From Tetradesmus obliquus (Eukaryota > Chlorophyta > Chlorophyceae > Sphaeropleales > Scenedesmaceae): DNA of 64,000 nt. The translations under genes were made by a program, and so were the position numbers. Every line of letters starts with the position of its first letter. Positions within the stretch are counted from its first letter, which is position 1. The stretch covers positions 496,001 through 560,000 of the forward strand of contig CP126199.1 of the NCBI GenBank assembly GCA_030272155.1, in the 5' to 3' direction. Shown one piece after another: positions 28,003 to 55,324 of the stretch. The notes beneath the pieces were generated by a model. It worked only from the letters and a program-made list of their open reading frames with translations, was not told the DNA's origin and did no database searches.

Positions 28003-30433
28003 ATGCAGCAGCAATTGAGGGGCATGCGCGTTGCCAGCTCTGGCTTCGCGGGCAGCAGGAGCGTGCAGCTGGCCGCACCAGTGCGTCCTTCGCGCACAAG
28101 CACCAGGAGGGCTCGCTCAGTCGTTGTCGAGGCAAACCTCTTCGCTAGGGCTGCTAGGGTGATCCAGTCATATGCAAACCAGATAGGTGCGTGCGAATTG
28201 TGGCTAGGTGGTGGGTTCGCAGGGCAGTGCTGGTACTGCTTCCCTGGTGTGTCTGTGGTGGGCTGGGAGCCCTGCCTGCGCTGACAGGCTGTCATGGATA
28301 CGCAATAAGCATGTCTTCGTGTCAACAACGTTTTACATGTCAGTTGGCCGCTCAACAGCGCTCTAGGCCGGCTACTGATCCCTGTGTTGCAGGTGATGCA
28401 GATGGGATCTCCTGGCTCCTGCCTGGCTGCCCATCCAAACTGCGTGGTGCTTGCTTTACTACTGCCTCTGCTGCTTCCTCTGCTGCTGTTGTTACTGCAG
28501 TGTCAAATGCTGAGGACCCTGAGAAGCTGCTGGACCAGGTGGTGAATGAGATGCAGGAGGACCTCATCAAGATGCGCCAGGCATCAGCACAGGTGCGGCT
28601 TTGAGGCCAGCAAGCGGGGCCACGTGTGTTAAATATGTAACAGATTGACCTGCAAGGCTGGCAGGCACTGCTGGGCTGCAGCCAGAGCACGACGCCTTGG
28701 TTGTGCTTGTTTCGTGTGCAAACAAGTTTTGCAGACGAAACAAGGGGTTGCTGTTTCGTTGCAGGCAGGTGCAGATCTTAATACTTCTCTTGTTGTCGAG
28801 TGTGTCTGACTCCATGCATACATGCATACGCGCAGGTGATGGCATCACAGAAGCAGATGGAGGCCAAGTACAAGCAGGCACAGGCCACAGCGGTGAGCAG
28901 CTCTTGCGCAGCACGCTCCACACACGCGCGCAGCCTTGCATGTAGCCAGTGCACGCATCCAGCTGCAGTATCCATGCATGCAGCAGGCCACAGCGGTGAG
29001 CAGCACACCCAAGACACACACATGCTGCAGCACGGCAGGCATCTAGCCACTGCCCTTGCATGCATGCAGCTGCGGTATCATGCATGCAGCAGGCAGCTGC
29101 ACAGTATTGGCAGGGCAGTGAGGAAGTAGACGTGGAGCCTTGCACACCTGATTGCGCAGCTTGCACACAAGGGACCAGCATCATTGCTGCGTGTGTCACT
29201 CTTAGTATACACATGCCGCCTCTTCAAGCAGGCAGCTTCCGCTGCGTGCCCACAGCCCTCATTGATATTGCCAGCGTTCAGCTCGACACAGGCATTCTCT
29301 GCGGCTGTCTGCAATCGTGTGCTACCTCCTCATCATGAATAGCATGCCTCCTTGCTGTGTGGCTGCTGACTTGGCTACTGATGCGGCTGCTGATGTGGCT
29401 GCTGGGGCTTGCAGGACGACTGGCTGAAGCGTGCTGAGCTGGCTGTCAGCAAGGGCGAGGACGAGCTGGCTCGGGAGGCTCTGAAGAGGCGCAAGGCGTA
29501 CCAGGTGCGCGAGTGGGGCAGGGTGACCTGCCTACGGCATTTCAAGACTGCACTACACAGCTGGTGCAGCAGTAGCAACTTGTGTTTGCATCTCAATGCT
29601 GCTGTATTGTCGTCTGTGGCTGCTGCAGCATGTGGTGGTGGTGGCTCTGTGTGCACAGCGAGCAGGGCTGTGCAAGCTGTGTAGTTTCGCCCAGTTTTGA
29701 CTCGCTCGGTGTGCAACTAGATGCTGTAGCTTTTTGCTGAGCAGCTGAGCTGCAGTGTCTGCCTCACAGCATTGCTGACGTGGCGTGGTGCTGCTGCTGT
29801 TTGCAGGACAACGCTGACGGCATGCGCACGCAGCTGGAGGCGCAGCAGAAAGCAGTCGACCAGCTGATCGCAAACACACGGTGAGTGCCGTATACTTCTG
29901 TGTGGTGTACACATGTGGGTTTGGTTGTACATGCTGACCGCAAGCAAGTGCACACTGCAAAGCGCCTGTCAGGTGGTGATTGCAGCCCTCACCACAGGCA
30001 CACCAGGATTTGCCCTAAGGTGGTCCTGTGACGCAATCGTAGCAGTAATGCATGCCATGCTTTTTGGGCCTGGCACTGTCGCGGCTGACGTCCGTGGCTT
30101 CCCTGCCTGGCCCTTTTTGTTTTCTTTGTTTTTGTTTTGTTGTGCAGCGTGCTGCAGGGCAAGCTGGCTGAGTCGCGCAGCAAGAAGGGCACGCTCAAGG
30201 CTGACTGACCTTTGATTCTGCTGCTCTGCTGCTGCTGCTGCTGCAGTGTGCTGGAGGGCAAGCTTGCTGAGGCTCGCAGCAAGAAGGACACGCTCACGGC
30301 TGACTGTTTGTGATCCTGCTGCTCTGCTGCTGCTGCTGCTGCTGCTGCTGCCACAGGGTGCTGGAGGGCAAGCTGGCTGAGGCACGCAGCAAGAATGTCA
30401 CGCTCAAGGCTGACTGACCTTTGATCCTGCTGC

Positions 30434-30478
<45 letters not shown>

Positions 30479-31702
30479 CTTTCTCCACGCAGCGTGCTGG
30501 AGGGCAAGCTGGCTGAGGCTCGCAGCAAGAAGGACACGCTCAAGGCGCGCGCTGCCAGCGCCAAGACCAGCAAGCAGATCCAGGAGATGGTGGGCAACCT
30601 CAACACCAACAACAGCGTGGTGGCCTTCGACAAGATGGAGGAGAAGGTGGGCGGCGTGCTGGCTGGGGGGGTAATGGCTGGTGAACCTGCACGCCTGCAT
30701 GTTTGCTTCAGGGGCGGCAATTGCTTGCTGCAAACAGCGGGGTGGCTTCTGGCAACATGCAGGCAGCGCACGATGGGGTGCGCTTTGGTTTCCAGTGACC
30801 TCTCACACTGTATGTTCATGCTTGCTGCGTCCAGGTCATCGCCATGGAGGCGGAGAGCGAGGCCGTCACCATGCTGACAGCAGGCGACACCCTTGCTGCC
30901 GCTGTTGCTGACACGTAGTTCCTGCATATTTTCACCCGCAGGTCATCGCCTTGACGGCCGAGAGCGAGGCCGTCACCATTTGACTAGCATCCGTGTCCCT
31001 CCATCCGCTGTTGCTCACATCACGGTTCTGCATATCTGTGCCTGCAGGTCATCGCCATGGAGGCCGAGAGCGAGGCCGTCACCATGCTGACCATGCTTTT
31101 GCTGCTGTCCCTTGCTCATTCTGTGCCTGTCTGTGGATATCGCTGCATCTGCAGGTCATCGCCATGGAGGCTGAGAGCGAGGCCGTCACCATATGACTAG
31201 CAAACGTGTCCTTCCATCTGCTGTTGCTCACACTTTGTTTCTGCATCTGTGCGCCTGCAGGTCATCGCCATGGAGGCTGAGAGTGAGGCCGTAACCACGT
31301 TACTGCTGACCATGCCCTTGCTGCCGCTGTTGCTCACACCTCACTGAGTTCACACCTGCGCCTGCAGGTCATCGCCATGGAGGCTGAGAGCGAGGCCGTG
31401 ACATGCAGTTACTGCTGTCCTTGCTCATACTGCTCTTGTCTGTGGATATTGCTGCATTGCAGGTCATCGCCATGGAGGCTGAGAGCGAGGCTGTGACCAT
31501 GCTGACAGCAGGCGACGGCCTGGAGAGCAAGTTTGCTGCCCTTGAGGGCGGCACTGTGGAGGATGAGCTGGCAGCGCTGAAGCAGGGCATGCTGGGGCCA
31601 GGCAAGGCCGGGGGCCCCGTGGCTGCGCTGCCTGAGGGGCGGCCCGTGAAGGATGCCATTGACATGGAGCTGGAGGAGCTGCGCAAGAAGGCGCGCGAGT
31701 AA
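28003..31702 (+). CDS. VIPP1: VIPP1 / IM30, plastid ESCRT-III-like membrane protein
   Basis: PspA/IM30 family protein of the inner envelope and thylakoids; forms rings and rods that maintain thylakoid membranes and protect them under stress. Exons 28003-28186, 28501-28592, 28836-28892, 29415-29504, 29807-29880, 30493-30646, 31463-31702; all phases agree, 296 aa. Residues 1-43 are an Arg/Ser-rich chloroplast transit peptide ([19 protein letters not shown]). The PspA core begins [17 protein letters not shown] and includes [65 protein letters not shown] and [22 protein letters not shown]. It closes with the VIPP1 tail [20 protein letters not shown]. Close to Chlamydomonas VIPP1 throughout. Introns 5 and 6 hold three and six echoes of the following exon's 5' end. 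Confidence 0.96.
28879..29001 (+). repeat. Echo of the exon-3 donor region in VIPP1 intron 3
   Basis: CAGGCCACAGCGGTGAGCAG at the end of exon 3 (28881-28900) recurs at 28982-29001, again followed by similar sequence that includes GCATGCAGCTGC. It provides a second potential donor about 101 bp downstream. Confidence 0.75.
30148..30415 (+). repeat. Three echoes of the 5' end of VIPP1 exon 6
   Basis: Copies start at 30148, 30247 and 30357, each directly after AG; the intact exon starts at 30493. Each encodes VLxGKLAExRSKxxTL in the correct phase, then KAD (or TAD) and soon an in-frame TGA. The Arg codon split by the intron would be CGC, CGT, CGG or CGC depending on the copy used: always Arg. 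Confidence 0.9.
30835..31462 (+). repeat. Six-unit, 107-bp tandem array of VIPP1 exon-7 5' ends
   Basis: Exon-like starts after AG at 30835, 30942, 31048, 31155, 31261 and 31368, then the intact exon at 31463. Steps are 107, 106, 107, 106, 107 and 95 bp. Each unit encodes [12 protein letters not shown] (second unit [12 protein letters not shown]) and then diverges; units 1, 2 and 4 reach an in-frame stop quickly. Confidence 0.92.
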
Positions 31703-31808
31703 GCAGCATTGATCTGACATCCAGCAGTGCGTGCAGCCTTCGCTGTGCAGCTGCGGCATGATTGGGGGCTCGATGCTTGACCTTGGAAGCAGCAGCTACT
31801 CAGCCTGG

Positions 31809-31957
31809 GGCGGCACTGTGGAGGATGAGCTGGCAGCGCTGAAGCAGGGCATGCTGGGCCCTGGCAAGGCCGGGGGGCTGTGGCTGCGCTGCCTGAGGGG
31901 CGGAAGGACGCGATTGACATGGAGCTGGAGGAGCTGCGCAAGAAGGCGCGCGAGTGA
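31809..31957 (+). repeat. Duplicate of the end of the VIPP1 last exon in the 3' flank
   Basis: Repeats 31552-31702 ([23 protein letters not shown] through [10 protein letters not shown] and stop) 107 bp after the true stop. Small deletions break the frame in the middle while the end including a TGA stop is restored. Confidence 0.85.
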
Positions 31958-33340
31958 AGCAGCAGCAGTTGTGTCGAGGACTGGCATGACCGGGCGGCGG
32001 CTGGCAGTTTGATGGCATTGGTGAGCCTTCGAGCGCAAGGCGCTGCGTAAGGAGGCGCGGCAATGGATCAGCTGCAGTCAGTTGACTTGCTCAGCAGCTG
32101 ATGGGCGGAAGCTGGATGGCGAACCCTGCAGCAGCACCTGTTCAGCTTGGTGGGCAGCAGCGGAAGCCGCCAGCTGCGTTCCTCTGCTGTAATGCGTTAG
32201 CTTTCCACGCGAGATGCAGCGTGGGAGGGTGGCGTGTGGCTGCAGCAGGTGTAAGTGCTGCTTACATGGTAGAGTGGCAGGGCGTGTGTTTTGCTGGAGG
32301 TGCAACATAATGATGTGCAGTGCGGCGGCGAGGGCTGTCTTTGAGTGGTGTGCAGAGTGTGGCAAACCTAAGTCGTTGCAGGATTACGGTACAGAGGATG
32401 AGTGCTGTAGGGCGCTTTAAGACAGCAGCAGATGCGTGCTGGACTTGCTGTACTGTGTGGGGTGTTGGCCGTTCAACTACCTGCTTTTTCAAGCGGCTGG
32501 CTGGTGTTACTTGTTAGCGTGACTGAGCTGCGTCGTGTTGCTCAGGTCTGCTGGCACTATGCGTCGTCTATGTGAGTCCTGGTCTTTTTTGTCGGCAGGC
32601 CACTGTCCAGTGGTGGTGGCAGTGTGATGTAGAGGGTGCTTTAGAGGCTGCATCAGCATGCCACATCACATTGCAGTGGTCACATTGCTTGTCTAAGGCG
32701 CTGTTACAGGCCATTGCTATAGTTGAGAGGATTTATTGTTCATACTTGTGTTGTCGAGAGTGACGCGGTGACCTTACTGCCAGTCAGCAACAGTAGATGC
32801 CTGTTTGACAAGCTGGCATCTGCAGCTGGAGTGCAGGTGTTGCTCTTACGGATTGTGTACCACCCCATTGCATTCTTATGAAGCTGCAGCGATTCTTCGT
32901 GTGCTGCATGCCTTATGCGTGTGCTGGCCAGCAGCTTGGAGCAGTTTACTTCACCTGGCTGTTTGGTAGCAGGTAGATGGTTGCAAGCAGATGTTCTGAT
33001 GTTGACTGGCGAGAGAGAGGACGAGGTGTCTGTGCTTATCAGTGCTTTGTAACCAAGCACATCTTTTCACTTCTTTTAACTTAAAAGTGAGCATTTGCTG
33101 GGGTCACCAGGTCCGTACAGGTGGTCACTTCCTGAAAGTGCGAAGGGCGCGTTAGGCTTGTACCTATGCGAACACAGTCACGGACGCTTGTTTTTTATTC
33201 ATTGGCAGTTGCGATAGCTTTGCCCACCGAGAACTTCGCTCAAACACCAGTGCCCGCGATTGTTCTCCACAACCCTTCCTGCGGAGGTGGTGGTTGCCAG
33301 CAACCCCCATTCTTGGCTATCTCACGCTCATACATAAACC
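31958..33340. other. Gap of 1.4 kb without a supported gene
   Basis: 3' flank of VIPP1 and 5' flank of the monooxygenase gene. TGTAA motifs at 32188-32192 and 32250 could serve as polyadenylation signals. Nothing else recognised. Confidence 0.5.
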
Positions 33341-36300: not shown

Positions 36301-36793
36301 TGCAGGTTGCAGCTGCCTGCTCCCTTCACCCCAATGCTGCTGCATGCATCCTTGCAACAGACAGGTCCTGTCTGGTGTGGTCCACGTCACAATGTTTTGT
36401 TGCTCTTGCACAATGTGTGTCCTGCCTTGATCTTGCACTTTTGTGCATTGCCCTGCAGGCCAGGGCCTGAACCAGGCCATGGAGGATGCCTGGGGGCTGG
36501 GCGCAGCACTGGCAGCAGCAGCAGCAGCAGTGGACCAGCCGCAGCTGGAAGCGCTGCAGGCCTTCCGGCAGCAGCGCGCAGCGCGCATGCGCACTGTGGT
36601 GGCCTACACCACTGCTTCTGGGGAGGCTGCATACAAGCGCAGCATGGATAAGGGCCAGGCAGATAAGGCGCTGGGGCCTGACACAGCGCAGATGAGCTCC
36701 GAGGAGTTCTTCAACTTCTGTTATGACGTTACGTTTGAGGATTTGGCTGGGCTGTCGAGTAAGCAGCAGCAGCAGCCTGCAGCGGCAGTGTGA
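33341..36793 (+). CDS. FAD-dependent monooxygenase (flavoprotein hydroxylase/epoxidase family)
   Basis: Single-component aromatic hydroxylase/epoxidase-type flavoenzyme, which uses FAD, NAD(P)H and O2 to insert one oxygen into a substrate. Exons 33341-33421, 33755-33851, 34141-34270, 34673-34768, 35150-35460, 35735-36139, 36459-36793; phases all fit, 484 aa. The protein begins directly with the dinucleotide-binding motif MDVVIIGGGPGGLAAALAL. The second strand VAIYERCP follows, then GLGLDVNGQKALRAI, the substrate-side WYEIQQMLLQALP, and GLLVAADGYFSRVR (DG motif region). The FAD ribityl motif GDAAHPLRPTGQGLNQAMEDA is split by the last intron. There is no transit peptide, so it is probably cytosolic. 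A Gln/Ser-rich insert at about 255-300 is unusual. The substrate cannot be told; zeaxanthin epoxidase, salicylate hydroxylase and urate hydroxylase relatives share these motifs. Confidence 0.88.
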
Positions 36794-38042: not shown

Positions 38043-38085
<43 letters not shown>

Positions 38086-38214: not shown

Positions 38215-38254
<40 letters not shown>

Positions 38255-39152: not shown

Positions 39153-39829
39153 GCCATTGCCTACCATATGCGCGGTATGCTTGCGCATCAGCAGCATGCA
39201 TGCAACCACACATGCTTCTGACGTGCCTTGTTGAGCCAGCTTCTCTGCCTCATCTCCTGGCACTTGTTTAACCTATTTTTCACACCTGCATTGCCTGCAG
39301 GGAGCCCGTGCATGCTGCCGCGCTGAGCCGTGTGGCGCAGGTGCTGCCTGATGCCGCCTTCCTGGCTGCAGCACGCCAGCTGCAGGAGGAGCTGCAGACC
39401 TGCTGGGTGGCAGGTGAGCGGCATGAGCAGAGGCTGCTGTTACTAGAAGACAGCTGCAGCAGCAGCTACAGCAGCAGGAGCAGCAGCAGCAGCGCGCCAG
39501 CTGCAGGAGGAGCTGTAGGCCTGCTGGGTGGCAGGTGAGCGGTGCAGGCAGTTGCAAGGCCACAGCTGCAGCAGCGACCAAGGCAGCTGCTAGACAGAAG
39601 TAGCAGCAACAGCAGCGACGGCTGAGAATGCTGGACAGCAGCGGCAGCAGTGGCTTGTTGTCTGCGGCTATCACGCTGCCTTGCTTGCAATGTTGTGATG
39701 TGTGTGCGTGCTGAGGAATGATGCCCTACAGCAGTCATCAGCTGCAGGAGGAGCTGCAGGCCTGCTGGGTGGCAGGTGAGTGACATGGGCAGAGGCTGAT
39801 GTTGCTAGAAGACAGCTGCAGCAGCGGCT

Positions 39830-39871
<42 letters not shown>

Positions 39872-41475
39872 CGCCAGCTGCAAGAGGAGCGCAGGCCTGC
39901 TGGGTGGCAGGTGAGCGGTGCAGGCAGCTGCACGGCGATTGTTGCTGCAGCAGCATGAGCAAGGCCACAACTGCAGCAACGCCTACTTATCCACCACACG
40001 ATAGCAGCTGCAGCAGCGGCTAGTTGTCCACGGATGATGAGCGAAGTAGGCAGGCCAGTCCGCGTTCCGCCAGGTACGATGTATGCATGTAGTCATGGGC
40101 TCGCGGCAGGAGGAGCTGCAGGCCTGCTGGGTGGCAAGTGAGCGGCATGCGCAGCTGCAGCAGCGGCTGCTGTTATGAAAAATCGCCGCGGCTACAGCAG
40201 CAGCAGCAGCAGCAGCAACGCCAACAAGTGGTAAGCAGCTGGCAGCTGCATAGCCTGCAATCTTCTTGTTGTGTGGGCCTGCTGTCGTGTTGCCGAGCAT
40301 CAGCAGGGAGGTTATCCTGTTTCTATTACACCGTACGTTGATGTGTGCGCTGAAGGGCAATTCAAAGTGACTCAGGGCTCTGGTGCATGTGCTGCTGCTT
40401 GCTGCTGCCTGCTGGCGCTGCAGGCATGCCGCTGCCAAATGTTGGCGGCAATGTGCTGCTGCCTGACCCCGTTGGCCACCCCGGCAACAGCAGCAGCAGC
40501 AGCGGCAGCAGCATGTGCGTGCTCAGCCACCACTCAAACTGCTGCTGTGGAACGCCCAGCTGCAGCTGCGCAGACGCCCAGACTGGTGCCGGCACAGCGC
40601 CTGAGTTTGCAGCAGCAGCATGGCGTGGCGTGCGGCATCATCGGCTGCCGCGTGTGTCATCTGATGCGCTCACGTTTGCGCTGCTGGGCGCTTGGGGGGC
40701 AGCACCCAAGATGACGTGCCTGATCAGCACTGTGGGAGGCGCAGGAGCAGCAGCAGCAGCAGCAGCCAAAGCGCAGGACCAGCACCACGGCCAACAGCAA
40801 AACGGAGGTGAGGGAGTGCTGCAGTCACTTGGTACTGCCTGCAGGACTGGCACGTGCAGGTGTGCTGCCGTTACATATGCTAGCAATGTAGCGTGGTTAC
40901 GGTACGTGGTTGGCGTTGATGCGGCACTAGTGCAGCCGTTTATGGCCATGCACCGATCACCGGTGCTGCCTCTGCTGCTGGCGGCTGGTCTTTGATTCTT
41001 AGTCAAGCATCAGCCCGTTAGCCCTGCTGTATCCTGCTGCCGCCTGTGGCTGCTTTCCACAACACCACATCATCATGCCACCAGTCAAAGCTGTAGCCAA
41101 AACTTATGTGCATGCACTCGGTGGTTCTGTAGGCACCGCAAGGCCTCGCAGAGCAGCGCTGCCGCCGGCGCTGCTGGCATGGGCAGCAGGCGGCGGCGTG
41201 GTGGCTGCTGTGGCGGGCGCGCTGCAGCAGATGGCGTCACAGGTGCACCTGGGCGACTCTGCTGGCGGCTGCATTGCAGTCACTCCAGAGGCAGGCGTTG
41301 ACTTTGGCACTAACCAGGTGGTGCTACTGCAAGAGGAGCAGCAACAACAGCAGCAGCAAAGTAATCAGCAGCAGCAGCAGCAGCAGCAGCAGCAAAGTAA
41401 TAAGCAGCAGCAGCAGCGGACCCGCCGGCGGCGAGGACGAAAGATCCAGGAGCAGCAGCAGCCGCGACCTGGAAG

Positions 41476-41957: not shown

Positions 41958-44900
41958 GGGAGCTGCTGCCAGATGAGCATGGCCCTGGCAGCAGGCCTAG
42001 CAGCAGCAGCAGCAGCAGCAGCAGCACATCCAGCAGTGACAGCATATGCAGCCTGCTGCGGCTGTGTGGTGGCAGCGTTGACAGCAGCACTCAGGTTTGC
42101 AAGGATGCTGCTGCTGGCGAAGGCGATAGCAGCGCTGCCACTGCAGTGCTGCTAGCGCCTGGGGCTTCCTACACTGTACGGGTGTCGCTGGCAACCAGCA
42201 GCAGGCGCAAGCATAGCCAGGCAGAGCTGGGAGTGATCAGCCAGATGTGTGTGGTGACAGCAGCAGCAGCAGTAGATGCAGAGCATGATGCAGCGTCAGG
42301 TCTGGGACAATATGCAGCTGACCAGCAGCAGCAGCGGCAGCAGCACAAAGGCGCCATGCATCAGGCAGCAGTCGGTGGCAGCAGAGGCAAGCAGCACAAC
42401 AAAGGCGCTGCAGGCTGCAGTGGCGGCAGCAGCCAGCGGCTCAGCGCTGCAATGCCGCCTGGCTGGCAGCTGCTGGTGGCTGGCGTGCCTGTCGCTGGCG
42501 GGCTGGTGGGGCAGCTGGCAGACCTGCAGGTGCGGTGTTCTGGTGCTTTTGAAACGATATAGTAATGTTTGCTGCAGCAGCTGTCCGGCGCGCACCCGGC
42601 TCCTTCGAGCTTGGTTGTGTGATGCAGTAACAGGCTTCAACAGCTGTTTGACCGACTATGACAGGCTCCGCGCTTGCAAGCATGGCCGCGCAGCAGACGG
42701 TTCACTGCTGCCCTGCTGCGTTGGTATGTTGACAACAGCACCGCTTTTGTTCTTGCGTTGGTACGTTGAAAACAGTTCTTTATGAAATGTATAGATATTC
42801 AAACTCATGTGTCGCTGGTAGTCTGCACGTCCTGCCATCCCTTCCCATTTGCATTGCAGAATGTGCTGAAGGCTGACGCAAAGCCCTTCATCAGCGCTGC
42901 GCTGGGGCACCTATCTGCAGCTCACTGTGCGCATGCCAACCCTGCTGCCATGCCTGATCGTGCGCCGTGCAGAGTGTGCTGAGGGCTGATGCAAAGCCGT
43001 TCAGCGCAGCGCTGCGGCGGCTGTTTGCTACCCCACTGTGATACTGCCCATCCTGCTGCCATGCCTCATCATGCTCCGTGCAGAGTGTGCTGAGGGCTGA
43101 TGCGAAGCCCTTCATCAGCGCTGCGCTGCGGCGGCTGTTTGCTGCTGCCGCCCAGCCTGGCGGGCCCGGCCTGGCCTTCCTGGCTGCACCACAGGATCTG
43201 GGCTGGGATGTGCCAAGTAACAAGGTGCGCACCCGTCATGCAGCAAAATGTTATACCGAAGTGCTTCAGAGAAGCATGTCTCAGCACGCCCCGGGGGGCC
43301 CAGCCTGGCCTTCCTGGCTACACCACAGGATCTGGGCTGGGACGTGAATAGTAACAACTTGAAGGTGGGTGGCACAGTGTATGCAGCAGCATACATCATC
43401 GTAGTCATCACAAACAGGAGCCCGGCGGGCCTGGCCTTCCTGGCTGCACAGCCACCTGGGCCGGGACGTGCCCAGCAGCAGGTGAGGCCTGTGTAGGGTT
43501 GAGGGGTTTGCTCAGCACTATATGCGCAGCAGCATATGCTAGTGACGGGTGCACCAGCATCAGATGCAGCAGCAGAGGCATCAAGGCGTGCATGCATCAT
43601 GTGTAGCCGCATCATCGATGCATGCGTTACACAGAGCAGCATGCAGTATCGATTCAGCCTAGCGGGGCTAGCCTGGCCTTCCTAGCTGCACCCAGCGACC
43701 TGGGCTGGGGCGTGCCCAGCAGCACGGTTGGGCGTGTGTAGGGTTTATGGTTTGCCCAGCACCGCCTGTGCAGCAGCATTTCGCATCAATCGATGCCAAG
43801 AAATGGAACGCAGCAGTAGAGGCATTGAGGCGTGCATATAGCATTGTGCAGCTGCATCAGCGCTGCTTGCATCACAGAGTAGCATCCAGTTACGATGCAT
43901 CACATGCAGCAGCATGAGGCGTCCATGCGTGATGTACAGCAGCATGAGGCGTCCATGCGTGATGTACAGCAGCATGAGGCGTCCATGCGTGATGTACAGC
44001 AGCATGAGGCGTGCATGCGTGATGTACAGCAGCATGAGGCGTCCCTGCGTGATGTACAGCAGCATGAGGCGTGCATGCGTGATGTACAGCAGCATGAGGC
44101 GTCCATGCGTGATGTACAGCAGCATGAGGCGTCCATGCGTGATGTACAGCAGCATGAGGCGTCCATGCGTGATGTACAGCAGCATGAGGCGTCCATGCGT
44201 GATGTACAGCAGCATGAGGCGTCCATGCGTGATGTACAGCAGCATGAGGCGTCCATGCGTGATGTACAGCAGCATGAGGCGTCCCTGCGTGATGTACAGC
44301 AGCATGAGGCGTCCATGCGTGATGTACAGCAGCATGAGGCGTCCATGCGTGATGTACAGCAGCATGAGGCGTCCAGCGCTGCTCACAGAGTGAGCAGGCA
44401 AAGCGAGCAGCGCTGGTGGCTTCGCCACCAGGTGCGTGATGTACAGCAGCATGAGGCGTCCCTGCGTGATGTACAGCAGCATGAGGCGTCCATGCGTGAT
44501 GTACAGCAGCATGAGGCGTCCATGCGTGATGTACAGCAGCATGAGGCGTCCATGCGTGATGTACAGCAGCATGAGGCGTCCATGCGTGATGTACAGCAGC
44601 ATGAGGCGTCCATGCGTGATGTACAGCAGCATGAGGCGTCCATGCGTGATGTACAGCAGCATGAGGCGTCCATGCGTGATGTACAGCAGCATGAGGCGTC
44701 CATGCGTGATGTACAGCAGCATGAGGCGTCCCTGCGTGATGTACAGCAGCATGAGGCGTCCATGCGTGATGTACAGCAGCATGAGGCGTCCATGCGTGAT
44801 GTACAGCAGCATGAGGCGTCCATGCGTGATGTACAGTAGCATGAGGCGTCCATGCGTGATGTACAGCAGCATGAGGCGTCCATGCGTGATGTACAGCAGC

Positions 44901-47900
44901 ATGAGGCGTCCATGCGTGATGTACAGCAGCATGAGGCGTCCATGCGTGATGTACAGCAGCATGAGGCGTCCATGCGTGATGTACAGCAGCATGAGGCGTC
45001 CATGCGTGATGTACAGCAGCATGAGGCGTCCCTGCGTGATGTACAGCAGCATGAGGCGTCCATGCGTGATGTACAGCAGCATGAGGCGTGCATGCGTGAT
45101 GTACAGCAGCATCCAGTACTGCTGCGATGTTTGTGGTGATGAGTGGCGACACAGCTGCCGTCATGCCATACAGCAGCATGTTAGCGCACGCAAATAATGC
45201 CGTGCTTTGTGTGCCGCATGTTGTTGCTGAGGCGTTCAGCGGCCGCGTGTTGTTTACCGACGGCGCTGCTGTGCTGCTGCAGTGGCACCTGTACAACGGG
45301 CTGTGCTTCCTGGGGGAGGCCTGCCAGCCAGCGTGATGTTGCATTGTTTTGTTCGTAACATTCCAAGACCGCAGCTCGCAACAGCACCATGTTTTTGTCT
45401 CATTGATGTGTGTGCGGTGGCACCTGTACAACGGGCTGTGCTTCTGGGCGGGGCCTGCCAGCCAGCATGTTGTTGCAATGATTCATTCATTACATGTCAA
45501 AATTGCAGCACGCACCAGTACCAAATTTTGTGTCTGCACTGCTGCGCCCATGCAGTGGCACCTGTACAATGGGCTGTGCTTTCTTGGGGAGGCCTGCCAG
45601 CCAGGCAGGGTGCTGCTGCGTTGCTTCATTCCTTACATTCCTGACACGCAACTGCTCCGTGTGTTGGTCTCATTGCTGTGCTGCTGCAGTGGCACCTGTA
45701 CAACGGGCTGTGCTTCCAGGGGGAGGCCTGCCAGCCAGCATGATGTTGTTGCAAACGCTTCACTCCCTTACCTTTCAAACCGCAGCATCGTGTTTGTCTG
45801 CATTGCTGTGGCCGCAGTGGCACCTGTACAATGGGCTGTGCTTTCTTGGGGAGGCCTGCCAGCCAGGCAGGGTGCTGCTGCGTTGCTTCATTCCTTACAT
45901 TCCTGACACGCAACTGCTCCGTGTGTTGGTCTCATTGCTGTGCTGCTGCAGTGGCACCTGTACAACGGGCTGTGCTTCCAGGGGGAGGCCTGCCAGCCAG
46001 CATGATGTTGTTGCAAACGCTTCACTCCCTTACCTTTCAAGCCGCAGCATCGTGTTTGTCTGCATTGCTGTGGCCGCAGTGGCACCTGTACAATGGGCTG
46101 TGCTTTCTTGGGGAGGCCTGCCAGCCAGGCAGGGTGCTGCTGCGTTGCTTCATTCCTTACATTCCTGACACGCAACTGCTCCGTGTGTTGGTCTCATTGC
46201 TGTGCTGCTGCAGTGGCACCTGCACAACGGGCTGTGCTTCCAGGGGGAGGCCTGCCAGCCAGCATGATGTTGTTGCAAACGCTTCACTCCCTTACCTTTC
46301 AAACCGCAGCATCGTGTTTGTCTGCATTGCTGTGGCCGCAGTGGCACCTGTACAATGGGCTGTGCTTTCTTGGGGAGGCCTGCCAGCCAGGAAGGGTGCC
46401 CGCAGCTGAGCTGGCGCAGCTGGGCCTGCGGCGCTTCAGGGCCATGCTGGACGCAGCCGGCAGCAGCAGCAGCAGCGGCATCAGCGCTCAGCAGCAGGCG
46501 GGGCTGGCAGCAGGGGCCCAGGTGGGTGGTGTGGTTTCTGCGTTGTATTGTGAAAGGCAAGGTTGCTGCAGCGCTGCACAGCAGGCAGGCAGGTGCCTTG
46601 AGCATGGAAGCGATGCTGCCGCTGGCGCTGTTGACCCCGCAGGGCATAAAGTGGTATCAGCTTTTGCAATTTCGGTCTGTCGGATGAAACCTGCAGTGCA
46701 GTAGCATCTGTTGCACTGCCACTGCGCTTCTCATTGACCCTGACAGGTCTGCTGCTGTACTACCTGCCGCACACCTGGTGTCCTGCCACTGCACATACAC
46801 CAACCGCAGCCCCCTCTGCTCAGCTGGGGCCCTCCCGTGCTGCAGCAGTGGCAGCGGCTGCTGCTGCTGGAGGAGTGCGCCTGCGAGCGCGACATTGCAA
46901 GCTACAGCGTGTTCAACGTGCGCCTGGCAGCGGCCGTGTTTGAGCAGGCTACTAGCAAAGGGACTGCTGCTACTAGTGGTGATGATGCAGCGCGGCTGCG
47001 GCGCTACGCCATCACGCCATGGCCCACACCCCCAGATGAGGAAGCTCCAGTAAGTGTTGCATTACCTGGACAGAGCTTACAATGCTCTGTGCTGTTGCTA
47101 ATGCTGCAAAGTCGGTGGCACGATACACTGCCAGGGACATTGCAGTGACTGTGTTACTGCTTCACAGCCATGCCAGGTGACCCGCGAACTGCAGCAACAC
47201 GACGTCACATTGCTGGCTGCTGTCCAGAGACATTCAGGGATGCATGAACACAGAGCCTCCTGCAGCTGTGCAGCAGGGGCCCTAGGCGCATTTGTGCTAT
47301 TTTTTTTCTGCTGCAGTCCTGTGCTTGGGGCTTGTCCGTGCCTTTTTGCGACCCCTCCAACCCAACTTCACTGCAGGTGAGATCCCCAAGCAACATGATT
47401 CTGCCCTGTCTTCCTTCCTTTCCTTGCCCCTGCAGCGTTTCACGTACAGGGGCCCCAATGTGTCGCTGCTGCTGGGACCTGGCCGTGCCCCTCGCCTTGC
47501 TGTCATCAGTGTGCCTGGCCTGCCTGAGAACAGGCCGGGCCTGGTCACAGGTGCGCGCAGCTGCTGCCTAACCTCCTCCGCCCACTAGTAGATCGCTGGC
47601 CTCAGTAGTCCTACTGTACCATGCGCAAAGCCATCCATGGAGGATATATTGTTTTGCTTGTGCTGCACACTGTCCTGATGGGATCATCACAGGTGCTGCT
47701 TGTTGAGTTGGCTTGACGAGAGAGTGCCAGGTGCATTCTGTGCTGCTTCAGTTGCTGCCGTACCCAGCAGGCACGCAGCCTTACAAGCTGCAGGCGTAAG
47801 AGCTGCTCGCGCCGTCGCCGCCTACGTGGCATACTGCTGCCGCTGCTGCTGCTGTTGCTGCTGTGTTTTGCACCTGCAATGTTGTGTATCTGCGCCTGGC

Positions 47901-50900
47901 CTCCCTGGTCACTGCTGATGCTGCTGCTGCCCCCGTTGCTGCCGCTGCTTCTACTTCTATGCACAGGCGATGTTGTGTACCTGCGCCTGGCGTCCCCAAT
48001 CACTGCTGATGCGCGGCACGCGCTGACAGCCCAACTCGCCGCGGACATCCAGCCCGCCAGCAGGGCCAACAGCAAGGCGCAGCGTGCCCTGCAGGGCTTT
48101 GGCTCACTGGCTGCCTTTGGCTCACTGGCGCCAGGCAGTAGGCAGCCGCTGCCGGTGCGGCGCCAGCAAGCACTGCAGGCGCAGCAACAAGCACGGCAGG
48201 CGCAGCAGCAGGTGGGCATGCCAGCGCTTGTGCGCTGCTGGAGGCGTGAGATTGTGTGTGAGAGTCGCTTAAATGCGTGGCTGTTGCGCCAGCATGGCTT
48301 TGCAGGGCTGCAGCTATTCTTTGCTACCAGGATGCATGACTTGAATAACAAGCAGATCTGCAGACCATGTATGCTTGATGTATTGTTGCATGTTGGTGAA
48401 GCTGCTGCAGCTGTGGCTGACAATGCCGTCGGACACTTTGGTGCTGATGCTACTGCTGATGATATTGCTGTTGCTGCTGCTGCTGCTGTCCTCCCCTCAT
48501 GCAGCTGTCCATGCTGCAGGCGCTGCACAGTCAGCTGCAGTCACCACACAGCAGCAGCAGCAGCAGCAGTGGGCCCCTTGAGGTGGAGGCAGCTGGGCTG
48601 GTGGCTGCTGTGGATGGCAGCCGCTGCCTGCTGGCCATGCCAGACGCTTTCTGGTGAGCAGGATGCTGCCGATGCGTAGCAGGATGGGCTGCAGCAGCTG
48701 TTACTTTTGCACACAATGCATGTGTGCTACACATGGCATGGATCAAATGCTGCCTGCTGGCCATGCCAGACGCATTCTGGTGAGCAAAGCGCTGTGGGCT
48801 GCGAGCTGCAGCTGCTTAGCAGTATGGCCTGCAGCAGCCACATGTGCATACATGTTGCGCTATGCTCGTGCTGCCTGCTGGCCATGCCAGACGCTTGTTG
48901 GTTAGCAGAGTGCTGCAGATGCGTAGCAGGGTGGGCTGCAGCAGCCACCACTATGCACACAATGCATGTGTGCTGCACATGGCATGCGTCAATTGTGCAG
49001 GCTGCACATCGTATGTGCATCCCCTGCATCGTATGTGCATCACCTGCTGCTTCGTCAGTGCTGTATACCACATCAAGGTTGCCAAGCATTGCAGGCGCTG
49101 CTGACAGCCATTGGTCTTTTCTTACGCCTGAAAAGCCTGACCTTTCGACCTTTTGTGCATCTGCTGCTGCCATGCAGGCTGCTGCTGCAGCTGCTGCACA
49201 ACTATGATGCACAGCAGGGCAAGCGCCACGGCAGGGGTACCTGGGGCGAGGCCCGTGCAGCAGCACACCCCCTGCTGGTGCACGCCTGCTTCTGCTTTGA
49301 CCGCACCGGCCACGGGCGCATGCAGGCGCTGCTGCCGCTGCTGGCTGCCAGTCCCCGGCTGCTGCTGCCGCCGGGCTTGCTGACTGGTGCTCCAGCAGCA
49401 GCAGTTGCTGCAGGAGACTTGGGCAGCAGCCGTGTAGAGCACAGCAGCAGTGCGACTGAGTGTGGTGCTGGTGCTGGCAGCAGTGGGGGAGATGCTGGTG
49501 TGGCGTCTGCTGCTGTTACTGCTGCAGCGGAGACCCGCAGCGAGCTGCTGTCTGCCGCAGGTGCTGCATCTCCTGACAAGGCAGAGCAGGCGAGTGGCGG
49601 GACTGCTGGGTTTTGTGCCATTATGTCACTGAGCTTCAGGAGCGCTCAAGCGCTTTTCTGCTGCCATCACCAAAACTACTGGCGGTGTGACTGTTGCTTG
49701 CACCACTGCCCTGGCTGCTCTGCATCTTGCGCTGCATGCTGCACAGCCCCCTGCTGCACTAATATTGAAACGCCACTGCTCGTTTAGTGTACAGCTTAGT
49801 TTGGATTGTCAGTAACACATTGCATGCACATGCTGCATGCCTTTGCAGGTGGTGTCTGTTGCATCCTCGCTGCAGCTGGCGGGTGGCGTGTCACTCAACC
49901 TGCAGCAGCGCCTGGCTGTGGCTGCGCTGCTGTGTGGAGGCGGCGTGGCAGCGCCCTACGTGCTGTTTGGGCCACCAGGGACAGGTGCGGTGGCAGCTGC
50001 ATGGCGCTGTTGATGCTGCCTTTCCACGCCTACATCCCGTGTTTAGTGCTCTGCTCAGTCACACGCTCATAGTAGGGGGAGCTGTAGCATGATGTTCTGC
50101 AAGAACTATTGTGGATATAGCAGCTGCAGTAGATGCTTGTGGCTGCGTTAGTTTCGTGCTACACTGTATTCTTGTCGACTGCATGGCTAAACGTGTGTCA
50201 GGAAGCTGATTCCTGCCGTCACCACAGCGCTGCTGCTGCTGCTGCGTTGTGTGCCTGCCTGCAGGCAAGACTGTGACGCTGGTGGAGGCAGTGCTGCAGT
50301 ACAGGTGGGCTGGCATGATCGTGAACCAGCCTGCGCGAAGGTTGAACTAGTTGTGAGACATGCACAGTCTGAACACTCATAGCGCACCACATTGCATGAA
50401 CTCTGTTGTTTTGGGACGGGACTCGGGAAGGAAAGTGTCCAAGCAGGCCAGCGCTTCTCCTGTTGCTGCCGCCGCTGCGCTTTTTGCTGCTTGCAGGATC
50501 GCGCACCCCAATGCGCGGCTGCTGTGCTGCGCGCCAGCCAACTACTCGGCCGACCTGCTATGCTCAGCGCTGGCGCGTGCTGGCGTGACGCGGCGGGAGA
50601 TGCTGCGCCTCAACGACCCCCGGCGGCCACTGGTGCAGGTGTGTGGGGCGAGGCAAGGCGGGGGGCAGCGGCTTTGTGTGTTTGTACATAGAATGCTGAG
50701 TGCTGGCGTGACTTGGGCGGGGGAGGAGATTCCACACTTTATCAACCCCCGGCGGCCACTTGTGCAGGTACGAGGCACATTCAAGTCAGCAGCCGTGTGT
50801 GCAGGATGTCTGCTGAAGAGCAGCAAGCTTATATTTGGTGAGGGCTCGTACATACACGCCTGCCCCTGTGGCGCTGCACTTCAGGCAGCCGTACAGGACC

Positions 50901-53246
50901 GAACATATTGTGCTGTTCTGCCAGGCCAAGTCCAAAATGCTGCCTATGTGCTGTTCTGATGCAGCATGCCTGCTGCACTGCCTGCTGTGCTGCCTACCTG
51001 CTGCGCTGTGCTGTGCACAGGCCAAGTCCGATACCCTGGCGTTCTGTGCTGTCAACGCTGCTCTGGACTGCTTCTGCTTGGAGGCAGGCCTGCGGGAGGC
51101 GGCCATCAGGTCAGCTCTGCTGCAGTTGAGGGGAACCCTCTATATCGCAGACATCAAACTTGTGACAATTAAGGACCATGCGTATGTTGTGGTATTATGT
51201 TGTGCTCGGCAGAATATACTGCAGGCCACGCACTGGGCACTGAAGCGGTTTGTTAGTGTGCGCAGCTCATGCTGCCCAGTGCATACAGTCTGTTTTGAGC
51301 TGCGCTGCTGCTGCGCTGCTGCTGCGCTGCTGCTGCTTGCCGCAGGCCCATCGTGGTGTGCTCCACCATCACTGCCGGGCTGCTGCTGCCCAAGCCCCGC
51401 AAGTCATCCGCCATTCCCATCCGCGCACCCGGCGCATCAGCAGTGCCGATATGCGCCCCTGGCTCTGCTGCCTCGATGGCAGCAGCCAGGCACAGCAGCC
51501 AGGCACAGCAGCCACCGCAGCAGCAGCCAGTGCAGCAGCAGCAGCAGCAGCAGCTGCAGCCGCTGCTGGTGCCTGCACTGCAGTTTGACCTTGTTGTGGT
51601 TGACGAGGCTGGGCAGGGGCTTGCGCCTGAGGTGCTGCTGCCACTGAGCTTGGCTAAACCATTGGTGAGTGAGGGTTTTGGCGGGTTTGAGATCAGAGGG
51701 GTCTCAATGGTTGCTTCACCTGGCAGCGTCAATGTGTGAAAATGCAGCACTTCAACCAACCCCAGCAGTAGGCGCCCTGAACTGAGCAGCCTGACGTTGG
51801 TCAACTCATTTCTTGATGCAGAACACTTGTTAGGCACTGATCTGGCGAGTTTATAGTCTTGCCAGCCTGTCACAAGCGCTTTGTATCTGCTTGGGACTGT
51901 GTTGCCCCGTCATACACCCTCCCCATGCGCTGTCTTGCACAAGCGGTGCTTCACATGTGCTCCTGCTGCTGACACCGCTGCCACTGCCTCCCTTTTGCCT
52001 CCAGGCGCCCATCATGCTTGCAGGAGACCCTCGCCAGCTGGGACCTGTGCTGCGCAGCGCAACAGCAGCAGCAGCAGGCCTGGGAGTCAGCCTGCTGGAC
52101 AGCTGGATCCAATTCTGGCACACAGCGTGCCCAGAGCTGCCAGCAGCGCGGCAGCAGCAGCAGCAACAGCAGCAAGGAGTGCGGCAGCCGCATTCTTCAG
52201 GCACAGATGCAGCCGCAGATCCGGATGCTTCTGCTGCAGCGAGCCAACAGCAGGTCATGATGTGCTACGGCATGCTGAGCGACAACTACCGCTCACATGT
52301 GCGGCTGCTGGATCTGCCTAGCCGGCTGTTCTATGGTGGCGCGCTGCGCGCATGTGCGCCGCCAGCTGCTGTGGCCCCTCCTCCTTGGGGAGAGCTGATG
52401 GTGCCAGGGGCAGGAGATGCAGCAGCAGAGGCAGGGGCAGGGGCAGAGGAAGCTGGAAGCGCTTCTGCAGAGTCACAGGAACCAGCAGCAGTAGCAGCAG
52501 CAGGCGATGGGGCTGGTGCGGAACTGGATGATGATGTGCTTGGCCCCAGCAGCACGCTGTTTGTGGGAGTCAACGGGGAGCAGCGCCAGGTGCGGCACTG
52601 TGAAGCACGCACAGCAGCAGCACTGATCGACTACAAACACCTGCCGTCTGTTGCTGTAGTCTCCTCACACGGCTGTGCAGGAAAAGAGACTGCCACCTGG
52701 CCTTACATTACATTCTTCACTGAACTACACACAAGCATGCCAGCAGTGTGAACCACTGCTCTGATCATGGCCCTCGTGTTGGTCTGGCCGCTGTAAATCT
52801 CTTCCATACAAAAAGTCACTGTGTCATGCCGCGCGTTGTGATGCCTTTGCAGGACGGCGACGCGCCCTCCTACTACAACCCTCAGGAGGTGCTGGTGCTG
52901 GCAGAGCTGCTGGCCAGCCTGCTGGGCACGCCAGCGGCAGGCACAGGTGGCACAGCAGCAGGTGGTGGTGCAACAGCAGCAGCAGCAGCCGTGTCGGTGA
53001 ACGACATTGGCGTGATCGCCACCTACAGGCGCCAGGTGGGCGAAGGCTGACTGATCTGCAGTACTCTCTCCTTTACTGCATATAGCATTGATGCAACGCT
53101 GCTGTTTGTGTAAATGACTGAGTTCAGGTCTGCTACTACATCGCTGGTTTGCAGCTTGCTTGCAGCAAGCCTACTGCTGCTAGGTTATGCTCGTTGGGTT
53201 GGCTGCTGGTTCTGTTTTGTCCTTGTGTATCCTGTGTATCAACCTG

Positions 53247-53278
<32 letters not shown>

Positions 53279-54988
53279 GGTCGCTGCTGCTGCTGCTGCG
53301 GTCGCTGCTGCTGCCGCCTTGCAGGTCCAGAAGATCCGCCTGCTGCTGCGCCAGCGGGGCCTGGGCGCGGTGCGCGTGGGCACTGTGGACGACTACCAGG
53401 TGCGTGGCTGCAGTGGCCGCAGCTGGCTGGACAGCTCTAGGTGATTGTTGTCAGGACTGCATCATGCCGGGAGCTGCTGCGTCATGTATGCAGCTGCCCT
53501 CTGAGAAAGCAGCAGTGCCAAATATGTTGCAACCAGCGACTCTTGTATAGGTTTCATTCCCTGGATTGCACAACAGCACCTGCCATGTGCACCTGGCCGC
53601 CACAAACCACCATCTGCGGGAGTTGCATTGATTAATATCATACTGTGTGGCATGCTGGCTGCTGCCGATGCTGAAAGGTGGGGCTCAAGGATGAATTCAC
53701 TGCGATTTCACTTGCTACCTGTCTGCAGGGCCAGGAGGAGCGCATCATCTTCATCTCCACTACACTCAGCAAGCCTGAAAGCCTGCCGCCACCGCTGCCA
53801 GACGTGTCAGCCATCGAGCAGCAGCAGCTGCAGCAGCAGCAGCAGCAGCAGCAGCACGGCCAGCGCAGCAGCAACTGCAGCTGGGGCCTTGTTGGGGGTG
53901 TGAGTGACGTAGGGTTTTGGAGGAATCCGAAGCGGTTCAATGTGGCGATAACGCGCGCGAAGGCGCTGCTGGTGGTGGTGGGCAGCCCGCGTGTGCTGGC
54001 TGCTGATGACAACTGGCGGCAGCTGCTGAGGCACTGCATTGCGAGGTGGGTGGCCTGCCGCTGATGACGCCCTTGAACTATTAAAACTGGGTGGCAGGTG
54101 GGCCCAAACCTTACCCCCCAATAATTACGTATGCATGACCTTAAGTGCACACATGCATTTGGCTTTGAAGGCGGGGCTCCCCTGTGTTTCTTGGTGTTGT
54201 GGCTGCTCTGTGATCTATTTACTGGCATTCAGCAATTGGAGAGCGCCAGGTGACCGCAGGCAACTTTGTGTTGTGTCTGGTCGCACTGCATTGCCAGGTG
54301 GGGCGCCTGCCTCGAATGACGTTCCTGAACATGTGACTGCGCAAATGCTTTCGGCTGTGCGGGCGGTGCGCACCTGTGTTTCTTTGTGTTGTGGCTACTG
54401 TAAGCACCACTGTTGTTGAGCACCAGGTGACTGCAGGCAACTTTTGCGTTGCGTTCGGTTGCACTTCCCACTCCGCACGTGTCGGCCAGCGGGCACATCG
54501 TCACGCAGCCCTGTCTGTTTCTCTTGTTGCACGCAACACACGCACACAATCATCGTAATTTGTCTGCTGCGTCTGGCTGCAGGGGTGCCTACCGTGGCGC
54601 TGGCTCCTCCTATTTGCAGCAGCTGCTGCGCGTGGAAGCGCTGCCCCCAGGCTACGACCAGCTGCAGGACTTGCAGCTGCCTACAGCAGCAGCAGCAGGC
54701 CACACAGCAGCCGCAACTAATGGCGGCTATCATAGCCCAACATATGTGAGCAGCCACACACATCTGCAGCAGCAGCAGGGCAAGGCCAGGCGTGCATCAG
54801 GCCTGCAGGGCCTGCTGGCAGATGCTGGGCAGGGAGGCGATGATGAGCTGCAGCTGGCGCTGGCTGTGCAGGCCATTGCGGAAGCCGCGCAGCTGGGCAC
54901 AGGCAGTGCTGAGCTGCTTTTTCCTCAAACTCTGGACGAGTATTATGCAGCATGCGAGGAGGAGCAGCCTTGGAAGGTGGCGCTGTGA
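37636..54988 (+). CDS. MOV10/SDE3-type superfamily 1 RNA helicase with long N-terminal extension
   Basis: Upf1-like SF1B helicase; SDE3 acts in RNA silencing and MOV10 in silencing and mRNA turnover. There are 22 phase-consistent exons: 37636-38939, 39301-39413, 40424-40807, 41133-41599, 41840-42529, 43084-43224, 46342-46521, 46846-47049, 47436-47550, 47967-48211, 48505-48653, 49178-49589, 49849-49984, 50265-50304, 50497-50638, 51021-51109, 51346-51664, 52005-52589, 52853-53035, 53325-53399, 53729-54045, 54583-54988; about 2231 aa (SDE3/MOV10 about 1000). MOV10-like sequence starts near residue 600. Visible are LLLLEECACERDIASY, VISVPGLPENRPGLVTGD, motif I LFGPPGTGKTVTLVEA (codon split by an intron), LLCCAPANYSADLL, motif II VVVDEAGQG, motif III LAGDPRQLGPVL, NYRSHVRLLDLPSRLFY, VGTVDDYQGQE, and motif VI NPKRFNVAITRAKALLVVVG. 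Residues 1-600 are Ala/Pro/Gln-rich and unfamiliar. One junction (49589) needs a GC donor. The N-terminal exons could form a separate gene, but the phases join them. Confidence 0.85.
39496..40144 (+). repeat. Four echoes of the exon-2 3' end of the helicase gene
   Basis: The end of exon 2 (CAGGAGGAGCTGCAGACCTG.. GGGTGGCAG, then GTGAGCGG, 39383-39420) recurs at 39496-39540, 39741-39780, 39873-39916 and 40107-40144. Three retain GGCAG|GTGAG; the last has GGCAA|GTGAG. CAG repeats separate them. Confidence 0.9.
42860..43030 (+). repeat. Two echoes of the 5' end of helicase exon 6
   Basis: After acceptors at 42859 and 42972, sequence encoding NVLKADAKPFISAAL and SVLRADAKPF.AALRRLFA precedes the intact exon at 43084 (SVLRADAKPFISAALRRLFA). 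Steps are 113 and 111 bp. Confidence 0.88.
43295..43726 (+). repeat. Three echoes of the 3' end of helicase exon 6
   Basis: Segments 43295-43364, 43421-43481 and 43660-43726 repeat GGCCTGGCCTTCCTGGCTGC..GATCTGGGCTGGGA with a following donor (AAG|GTGGGT, CAG|GTGAGG, and a poor ACG|GTTGGG). The real exon end is at 43224. Confidence 0.85.
43908..45112. repeat. 30-bp minisatellite, about 38 copies in two blocks
   Basis: Unit CATGAGGCGTCCATGCGTGA plus TGTACAGCAG, tandem from 43908 to 44374 and from 44432 to 45112, with very few variants (CATGCG/CCTGCG, GTCC/GTGC, one CAG to TAG at 44836). Because 30 is divisible by 3, several frames on both strands stay open for hundreds of codons. It lies inside the intron between helicase exons 6 and 7, so these frames are not taken as genes. 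Confidence 0.97.
44374..44431. repeat. Hairpin-forming spacer between the minisatellite blocks
   Basis: CAGCGCTGCTC (44374-44384) is the exact inverse of GAGCAGCGCTG (44405-44415), and directly overlapping is the 8-bp-stem hairpin CTGGTGGCTTCGCCACCAG (44413-44431). Confidence 0.85.
45283..46341 (+). repeat. Array of exon-7 echoes with a 262-bp higher-order unit
   Basis: Copies of TGGCACCTGTACAAnGGGCTGTGCTT start at 45283, about 45419, 45556, 45690, 45818, 45952, 46080 and 46214, before the intact exon 7 at 46342. From 45556 the spacing alternates 134 and 128 bp, so the real unit is a 262-bp dimer (type with TTTCTTGGGG and type with TTCCAGGGGG). All but the second keep an AG acceptor and the frame WHLYNGLCF. 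Confidence 0.92.
47879..47920 (+). repeat. Echo of the 5' end of helicase exon 10
   Basis: ATGTTGTGTATCTGCGCCTGGCCTC..ACTGCTGATG upstream repeats the start of the real exon at 47967 (DVVYLRLASPITAD). The acceptor itself is degraded (CACCTGCA). Confidence 0.75.
48749..48906 (+). repeat. Two echoes of the 3' end of helicase exon 11
   Basis: CTGCCTGCTGGCCATGCCAG and the following ACGC..TCTG|GTGAGC recur at 48749-48786 and 48870-48906 after the real end at 48653. The second copy has TTGG|TTAGC, a broken donor. Confidence 0.85.
50698..50767 (+). repeat. Echo of the 3' end of helicase exon 15
   Basis: Repeats GTGCTGGCGTGAC through CCCCGGCGGCCACTTGTGCAG with a donor GTACG, about 129 bp after the real end at 50638; the middle is diverged. 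A short echo of the next exon start (GCCAAGTCC after AG) lies at 50925. Confidence 0.8.
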
Positions 54989-55054
54989 AGCACACAAGTG
55001 CAGACCTGCAGCTGTTTCTGCACAGACCACATGCTCGCTGTTAGGAAACATGCA

Positions 55055-55324
55055 GCGGGTGACGACGAGCTGCAGCTGGCGCTGGCAGTGCAGGCCATTG
55101 CGGAGGCAGCGCAGCTGGGCACAGGCAGTGCTGAGCTGCTGTTCCCTCAGACACTGGACGAGTATCATGCAGCATGCGAAGAAGAGCAGCCCTGGAAGGT
55201 GGCGCTGTGATGTGAGTTGCAGTTTTGTGCCGTAGAGTTGTACCAAGTGGGATGCTGCACTTACAGGTGCTCCTGGCTGGTGCTGTGGTGTGTGACGAGG
55301 AGCAGCCCTGGAAGGTGGCGCTGT
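55055..55324 (+). repeat. Duplicates of the helicase C-terminal coding end in the 3' flank
   Basis: 55055-55210 repeats 54835-54988 (GDDELQLALAVQAIAEAAQL through EEEQPWKVAL and TGA) almost perfectly; 55293-55324 is a third, partial copy of DEEQPWKVAL. They lie 65 and about 300 bp after the true stop. Confidence 0.9.

Follow-up and report, generated by a model that had tools for sequence, protein, structure and literature searches.

Exon-edge copies in introns and 3′ flanks of Tetradesmus obliquus genes and their possible origin from diverged alleles

A 64,000-nucleotide stretch of the Tetradesmus obliquus genome (C9:496001-560000 in an assembly of 17 contigs and 104.66 Mb; hereafter the window) carries, in introns and 3′ flanks of several genes, short degenerate copies of the neighbouring exon edge together with its splice site. 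How did pieces of exon edges come to lie beside the exons that they resemble, and how did they diverge from them? These copies, named echoes here, form arrays in two genes of the window. The first is VIPP1, whose encoded protein matches a Tetradesmus obliquus protein without a difference over 234 residues. The second lies in the region 37.6-55.3 kb, which has a helicase (AAA_12 in Pfam) at its end and copies at many boundaries (39.4-40.2, 42.86-43.7, 45.27-46.34, 47.8, 48.7-48.9, 50.7, 54.3 and 55.06-55.33 kb). Short local duplications are frequent in the sequence analysed; what can be recognised of them is, in most cases, an exon edge with the core of its splice site.

Frequency and position of the copies

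The analysis covered 308 kb of one assembly, including a survey sample of 20 systematically placed ten-kb stretches and a replicate of a further 50 kb (L029-L033) analysed with a frozen gene model. A simple gene finder, seeded with exons of VIPP1 and of the helicase gene and then retrained on the exons that it had called, gave 289 exons in 268 kb; since VIPP1 belonged to the training set, the finder's exact recovery of this gene does not validate it independently. The satellites L024 and L025 were omitted from most counts (not from the self-match survey), and the repeat-rich L026 from cluster classes, codon counts, junction enrichment, identity profiles and the ungapped detector.

Among the self-matches of the 20 survey stretches, satellites included, 212 were direct and 23 inverted. 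Block-shuffled sequence had none, which excludes a chance origin of the echoes. The partial boundary copies that a first-pass annotation had described in introns and 3′ flanks of VIPP1 and of the helicase gene are thus real. Its estimate of about 30 copies at nine or more boundaries between positions 28879 and 55324 compares with our count of about 35 copies at 13 boundaries, which leaves out 11 of the 24 listed junctions because they are taken to be errors of the gene models, satellite, or second entries for copies already counted. Copies are also present in the minus-strand gene at 8.8-15.2 kb, for which “FAM120-like” is a name given by that annotation only. Those announced for a PB1 gene, presumably the minus-strand gene at 23.3-27.3 kb, reduce to seven matches, namely six CAG-rich runs and one weak match of 27 bp; a Pfam search with three exons of this gene gave no match.

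Of 424 splice junctions, 121 have a direct copy no more than 1 kb away in one direction or the other (query sizes were fixed and 29 low-complexity queries left out; some copies were counted at both junctions of short exons). Such copies are fewer for mid-intron segments (21 of 152; p = 0.0003) and intergenic segments (28 of 355; p = 8e-14). Boundary duplicates are thus commoner than duplicates of interior intron segments. Mid-exon segments (13 of 66) are not significantly below the junctions (p = 0.14), but their matches lie within coding sequence in 61 of 80 cases. When only the adjacent outer side is considered, 106 of 443 junctions have a match, and 27 of 102 in the replicate. Self-matches in the replicate (64 direct, 1 inverted) fall nearly all in two of its five stretches, L032 with 39 and L033 with 22 direct matches as compared to 2, 0 and 1 in L029-L031; echo density is strongly uneven between these regions. 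Local clusters were assigned to 68 edge, 14 intron, 5 intergenic and 16 exon-exon cases, two of the intron clusters being the VIPP1 and helicase echo arrays.

Within introns, donor copies lie downstream in 72 cases and upstream in 24, while acceptor copies lie upstream in 66 and downstream in 13. The outer side, thought at first to be invariable, is thus the position of a majority. Matches in sequence modelled as coding (147 of 268 for donors and 72 of 153 for acceptors) represent repeats, or echoes taken for exons. The median lag to the nearest copy is 138 bp. Lags shorter than 200 bp make up 66 of the 89 pairs, and these 66 have a mean of 130 bp (standard deviation 23.5). The array of the last VIPP1 exon has start-to-start steps of 107, 106, 107, 106, 107 and 95 bp; the step of about 107 bp that had been described as frequent is that of this one array. 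Lags below 60 bp were absent from the BLAST results, for which the handling of neighbouring diagonals by this program may partly account, and the ungapped detector (see below) found no edge cluster below 68 bp.

Codon differences and anatomy of the copies

An echo that is neutral from birth, and is kept only where the exon stays intact, could be created in a single chromosome by replication slippage or by tandem duplication of the usual local kind. The outer position of the echoes would follow from geometry. In that case silent changes should make up at most 0.37-0.395 of the differences between echo and exon, the 0.395 ceiling assuming a perfectly constrained exon, a neutral echo and one mutation rate. 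Comparison of the nearest echo with its exon at 89 junctions yielded 248 silent and 215 replacement differences, a silent fraction of 0.536 (0.48-0.595) that exceeds this ceiling and should not arise from an echo neutral from birth. The dN/dS ratio is 0.283 (bootstrap 0.22-0.35), and wrong-frame controls on the same alignments gave 1.21 and 1.61. Values for the replicate (26 pairs, 43 silent and 43 replacement) are 0.33 and, in the wrong frames, 1.51 and 1.22; pooling of the 115 pairs gives 0.29 (0.235-0.352). Pairs shorter than 8 codons (3 of 92 in the main set, 1 of 27 in the replicate) were left out of the codon counts, and the counts of the main set as well as the identity profiles were made without the 79-bp satellite donor of L022 and one CAG-rich minus-strand acceptor.

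Adjacent echoes compared to each other, a test in which the real exon is not involved, also show a silent excess: 146 silent and 168 replacement differences (0.465 silent) where about 0.25 is expected without constraint. This comparison excludes the L022 arrays except one and the minus-strand arrays of the window. The hand-picked copies of gene 3′ ends have silent to replacement ratios of 12:1 (helicase, behind the stop codon) and 5:1 (VIPP1), and 15 silent and 3 replacement changes separate the last exon of VIPP1 from its echoes. By these codon patterns, most of the divergence between echo and exon arose with both copies under coding constraint. The genome-wide process of tandem duplication or slippage put forward in the first-pass annotation therefore stands as far as local duplication concentrated at exon edges is concerned; the view of the echoes as neutral products of slippage from the exon next to them is unsupported. 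The enrichment of edges over introns and intergenic DNA adds to the evidence against a purely tandem origin, which we consider unlikely.

A plain tandem process of similar step does exist. The ungapped detector, applied to the 308 kb at lags of 20-400, identified 102 clusters. Of these, 80 are partial (60 edge, 11 non-coding, 9 coding) and lack the likeness of both copies over the whole step that plain tandem duplication gives; 22 are full-length (8 edge, 8 non-coding, 6 coding). Most edge copies match in part, chiefly in the exon. The full-length duplicates at edges and in non-coding DNA (8 each) speak for tandem duplication. If edges are assumed to occupy 25 of 215 kb, these numbers amount to an enrichment at edges over non-coding DNA (rough binomial p 2e-4) that is not fully explained.

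Eight young two-copy pairs have copies of 36-100 bp at 95-98% identity and spacers of 39-91 bp without match at that stringency; a ninth high-identity pair, in L026, is a plain 600-bp duplicate. The copy-spacer-copy form of these eight pairs (at least 95% identity) is also compatible with templated insertion during repair (by synthesis-dependent strand annealing or polymerase theta), whereby an intron break captures a nearby exon copy with no homolog involved. Such events are known in vertebrates from Pace et al. 2009 (PMC2671141), and they are the nearest known kind: likewise short, closely linked, tens to hundreds of bp long, and few with exon/intron borders. The linkage given there (duplication up to ~600 bp) includes our median nearest lag. 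However, partial exon/intron donors numbered 4 among 824 in that study, and Ka/Ks of the two complete exon copies could not be distinguished from 1, whereas here most copies stem from an exon edge, the divergence is mainly silent (dN/dS 0.28 and 0.33, well below 1) instead of constraint-free, and intron similarity extends beyond the splice site. We hold templated insertion to be improbable as the origin of the echoes.

The similarity between echo and exon junctions declines into the intron. Ungapped alignment of the 43 anchored donors gave an identity of ~0.8 for exon positions and the donor up to +5, 0.6-0.67 to +10 and ~0.5 beyond; that of the 33 anchored acceptors is ~0.8 at −4, followed by 0.6-0.67 and then ~0.5. 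Only pairs passing the anchoring filter are included in these profiles, and the expected chance level is about a quarter. The profiles look like those between two working homologous junctions. In 17 of the 51 two-copy cases the intron on the exon side is more similar to the intron past the echo than controls are (p < 0.05; the number is 27 at p < 0.2), an indication that the intron was often co-duplicated and has since diverged far more.

As the first-pass annotation had noted, many echoes keep the splice-site core: of those that were anchored, 33 of 43 donor echoes retain GT and 27 of 33 acceptor echoes retain AG. This retention and the past coding-type constraint would be compatible with functional decoy or alternative splice sites tuning expression, for example by nonsense-mediated decay, as proposed there. 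The proposal found no positive support, and we regard it as most improbable. GT and AG are expected to be retained anyway in young copies, a spacer separates the acceptor echo from the remainder of its exon, echoes also occur behind stop codons, and 22 of 89 echo alignments contain frameshifting indels, so that many echoes cannot be coding now. Micro-exons, and new introns cut at an internal AG|GT, were considered by eye as roles for the copies and dropped.

Assembly error is, from the sequence, an unlikely source of the echoes. In its specific form of false duplication, both alleles of a heterozygous locus would have been written in tandem, which would likewise yield silent differences and poorly matching introns. 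The frameshifted alignments show that the copies are not all intact alleles, and decay is graded. Up to 8 regularly spaced echoes are present in one array, rather than two copies, and the assembly consists of 17 long contigs. We judge false duplication to be very unlikely. Searches of this assembly revealed no comparable diverged second locus for the VIPP1 or helicase stretch, only short matches, and the L021 stretch gave only short matches of 29-51 bp; protein searches for a diverged second allele returned nothing usable, one of them being without any match and another, with the BBOF1-like gene, having its best match in Scenedesmus sp. NREL 46B-D3. An 82-bp match (79%) to window positions 31514-31595 lies on the same contig at C9:5675775, distant from VIPP1, and a segment of ~33 bp (L021:8643-8675) is central to at least 19 further short matches genome-wide.

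Allele-like classes and proposed origin

If echo and exon descend from alleles, their divergence may have a common age. In the main set dS is 0.213 with a chi-square per degree of freedom (chi2/df) of 1.13, and a Poisson model is preferred to exponentially distributed ages by 18 log units. The replicate did not repeat this fit (see below), and one common divergence for all pairs is no more than suggestive. Allele-like classes are seen in the array at 45269-46341, where each of the eight echoes is either 87-90% or 98-99% identical to the real exon. Its last six copies alternate between AAC/TTC and AAT/TTT/CTT versions, with the intron tails CTGTGCTGCTGCAG and CTGTGGCCGCAG. Besides these tails, the classes differ in silent codons (AAC/TTC versus AAT/TTT) and at one codon that is CTG or CAG versus CTT: within the AAC/TTC class it is CTG in the first copy (silent relative to CTT) and CAG in later copies (a replacement). 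The regular 262-bp step suggests amplification of one two-class pair. Classes are mixed also in L023 at 4219. Among the VIPP1 echoes at 30144-30410, the later copies have intron tails like the real one, and the tail preceding the first echo is unlike it. The last-exon array of VIPP1 (30832-31521) displays a stepwise gradient at silent sites from the farthest echo to the real exon, resembling a time series.

We infer, with an even chance of being right, that local duplications placed diverged alleles side by side in cis; this reading is unproven. In its favour are the silent excess, in the echo-echo comparison and behind stop codons too, the alternating classes of the helicase array, the junction profiles, the intron similarity past the echo and the absence of a diverged second locus for the three stretches searched. 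Each chromosome of the alga would exist, or have existed, in at least two deeply diverged forms, homologs that still match in exons and poorly in introns. Repair of breaks near exon edges from the homolog, or an exchange of duplicated segments with it, would bring an edge of allele A to lie beside the exon of allele B. In the simplest mechanism, a repair strand that copies the homolog beyond the exon end could not anneal back and would be end-joined, the product being exon(B)-intron piece(B)-exon edge(A)-intron(A). Since the intact exon and its splice site survive, the event would be tolerated. Matching exon copies might then serve as sites of unequal exchange and grow into arrays, while the echo, having no later coding role, decays. 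Exon edges would be conspicuous because introns of the two alleles align poorly. The first step may be such a join from one homolog to the other, or else a plain duplication whose copies were afterwards shuffled among alleles; the results would look alike.

Independent information on ploidy is compatible with diverged homologs. PMC12636532, citing Biondi et al. 2024, describes a T. obliquus strain as diploid with extensive heterozygosity and possibly hybrid; the assembly of DOE0152z has 208 Mb versus ~109 Mb for UTEX 393 (PMC5552973); and UTEX 3031 has two close sequences of one gene that are seemingly alleles, according to PMC12899622.

Several observations weigh against an allelic origin. 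The replicate dS of 0.145 is not homogeneous (chi2/df 2.36; replacement 1.42), and pooled dS has a chi2/df of 1.36, a moderate spread (gamma shape near 6) being preferred by 3 log units. Replacement divergence is overdispersed in the main set (chi2/df 2.25). Overdispersion of replacement changes, as for varied ages, and of the replicate dS favours tandem duplication. In the last-exon array of VIPP1 two codons have three states, which implies three or more versions of the allele or mutation at a later time. An automatic scan found matches at 10 of 32 stop ends, and the eight for which codons were counted (silent:replacement 5:13, 1:3, 8:3, 5:3, 0:2 in a satellite, 2:1, 3:6 and 3:0) total 27:31, of which 5:13 and 3:6 are clearly replacement-rich. 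To the 22 full-length clusters described above belong plain duplicates such as L032 8465 (lag 94, 99%), and certain pairs are 100% identical. No excess intron similarity (p ≥ 0.2) was found in 24 of the 51 two-copy cases, some of them at 95-98% exon identity. Start codons have an echo in 1 of 31 cases, and that one is a satellite. Finally, the gene models are home-made and in part trained on the same loci, and all comparisons are within one assembly.

Features, related systems and meaning

The echoes of the window are listed in Table 1. At 43907-45112, the helicase region also contains a 30-bp satellite of ~40 copies, interrupted near 44376-44431 by a differing short piece. Elsewhere in the window of this coccoid alga are a minus-strand BBS2 gene (3035-6630; Pfam) and a BBOF1-like basal-body gene (58008-63712) whose best protein match is from Scenedesmus sp. 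NREL 46B-D3 (94% over 68%). Tandem repeats in the survey have units of ~4282 bp (L025), ~277 bp (L024) and ~191 bp (L012:1-940).

Table 1. Exon-edge copies of the window.
Feature	Position	Strand	Basis or remark
Donor echo of VIPP1 exon 28836-28892	28973..29003	+	91% over 31 bp, 80 bp beyond donor
3 acceptor echoes of VIPP1 exon 30493-30646	30144..30410	+	self-comparison
6 acceptor echoes of last VIPP1 exon (31463-31699)	30832..31407	+	self-comparison
VIPP1 3′-end copy including stop codon, in 3′ flank	31808..31964	+	5 silent, 1 replacement, indels
Exon edge (39365-39421) and ~4 donor-edge copies downstream, with spacers	39365..40221	+	self-comparison
2 acceptor echoes of exon 43084-43224	42855..43083	+	self-comparison
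3 donor echoes of exon 43084-43224	43290..43728	+	self-comparison
8 acceptor echoes of exon 46342-46521; last six alternate in two classes with differing intron tails	45269..46262	+	
Acceptor echo of exon 47967-48211	47834..47921	+	self-comparison
2 donor echoes of exon 48505-48653	48749..48948	+	self-comparison
Donor echo of exon 50497-50638	50700..50769	+	self-comparison
Helicase-gene 3′-end copy behind stop codon	55058..55210	+	12 silent, 1 replacement, 49 codons, no indel
Second, short copy of helicase-gene 3′ end	55291..55328	+	self-comparison
Echoes and exon fragments within the gene 8793-15170, which lies outside the span 28879-55324	12991..13573	-	

Judged by titles and the beginnings of abstracts, we found no description in the literature of exon-edge copies of the present kind. 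Complete tandem exon duplication is a known local duplication of coding sequence including splice motifs. The same holds for intron gain by tandem genomic duplication (PMC3296678); unlike both, the copies described here are mostly partial, lie outside the exon and have no demonstrated new exon or intron. Introners likewise add material to introns, also in algae (compare PMC9860276), but they copy into many genes, whereas three searched stretches are gene-specific here apart from short matches. Hybrid diploidy in green algae likewise involves two diverged homologs that exchange sequence; PMC12636532 describes hybridization and chromosome-scale loss of heterozygosity, while here allele pieces are apparently adjacent in one chromosome.

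It is possible, though less probable than the allelic origin itself, that introns and 3′ flanks are an archive of former alleles left by repair overshoot at the border of exon homology. About a quarter of junctions would then carry frozen exon versions, whose order, as at the last VIPP1 exon, may record allele replacement. If the proposed origin is true, annotators would have reason for caution, because a gene finder can mistake echoes for exons. Exon borders in highly heterozygous diploids would be hotspots of a predictable failure of repair that enlarges introns and leaves datable allele copies behind, and in that case the record of exchange between homologs could be read from one haploid assembly.

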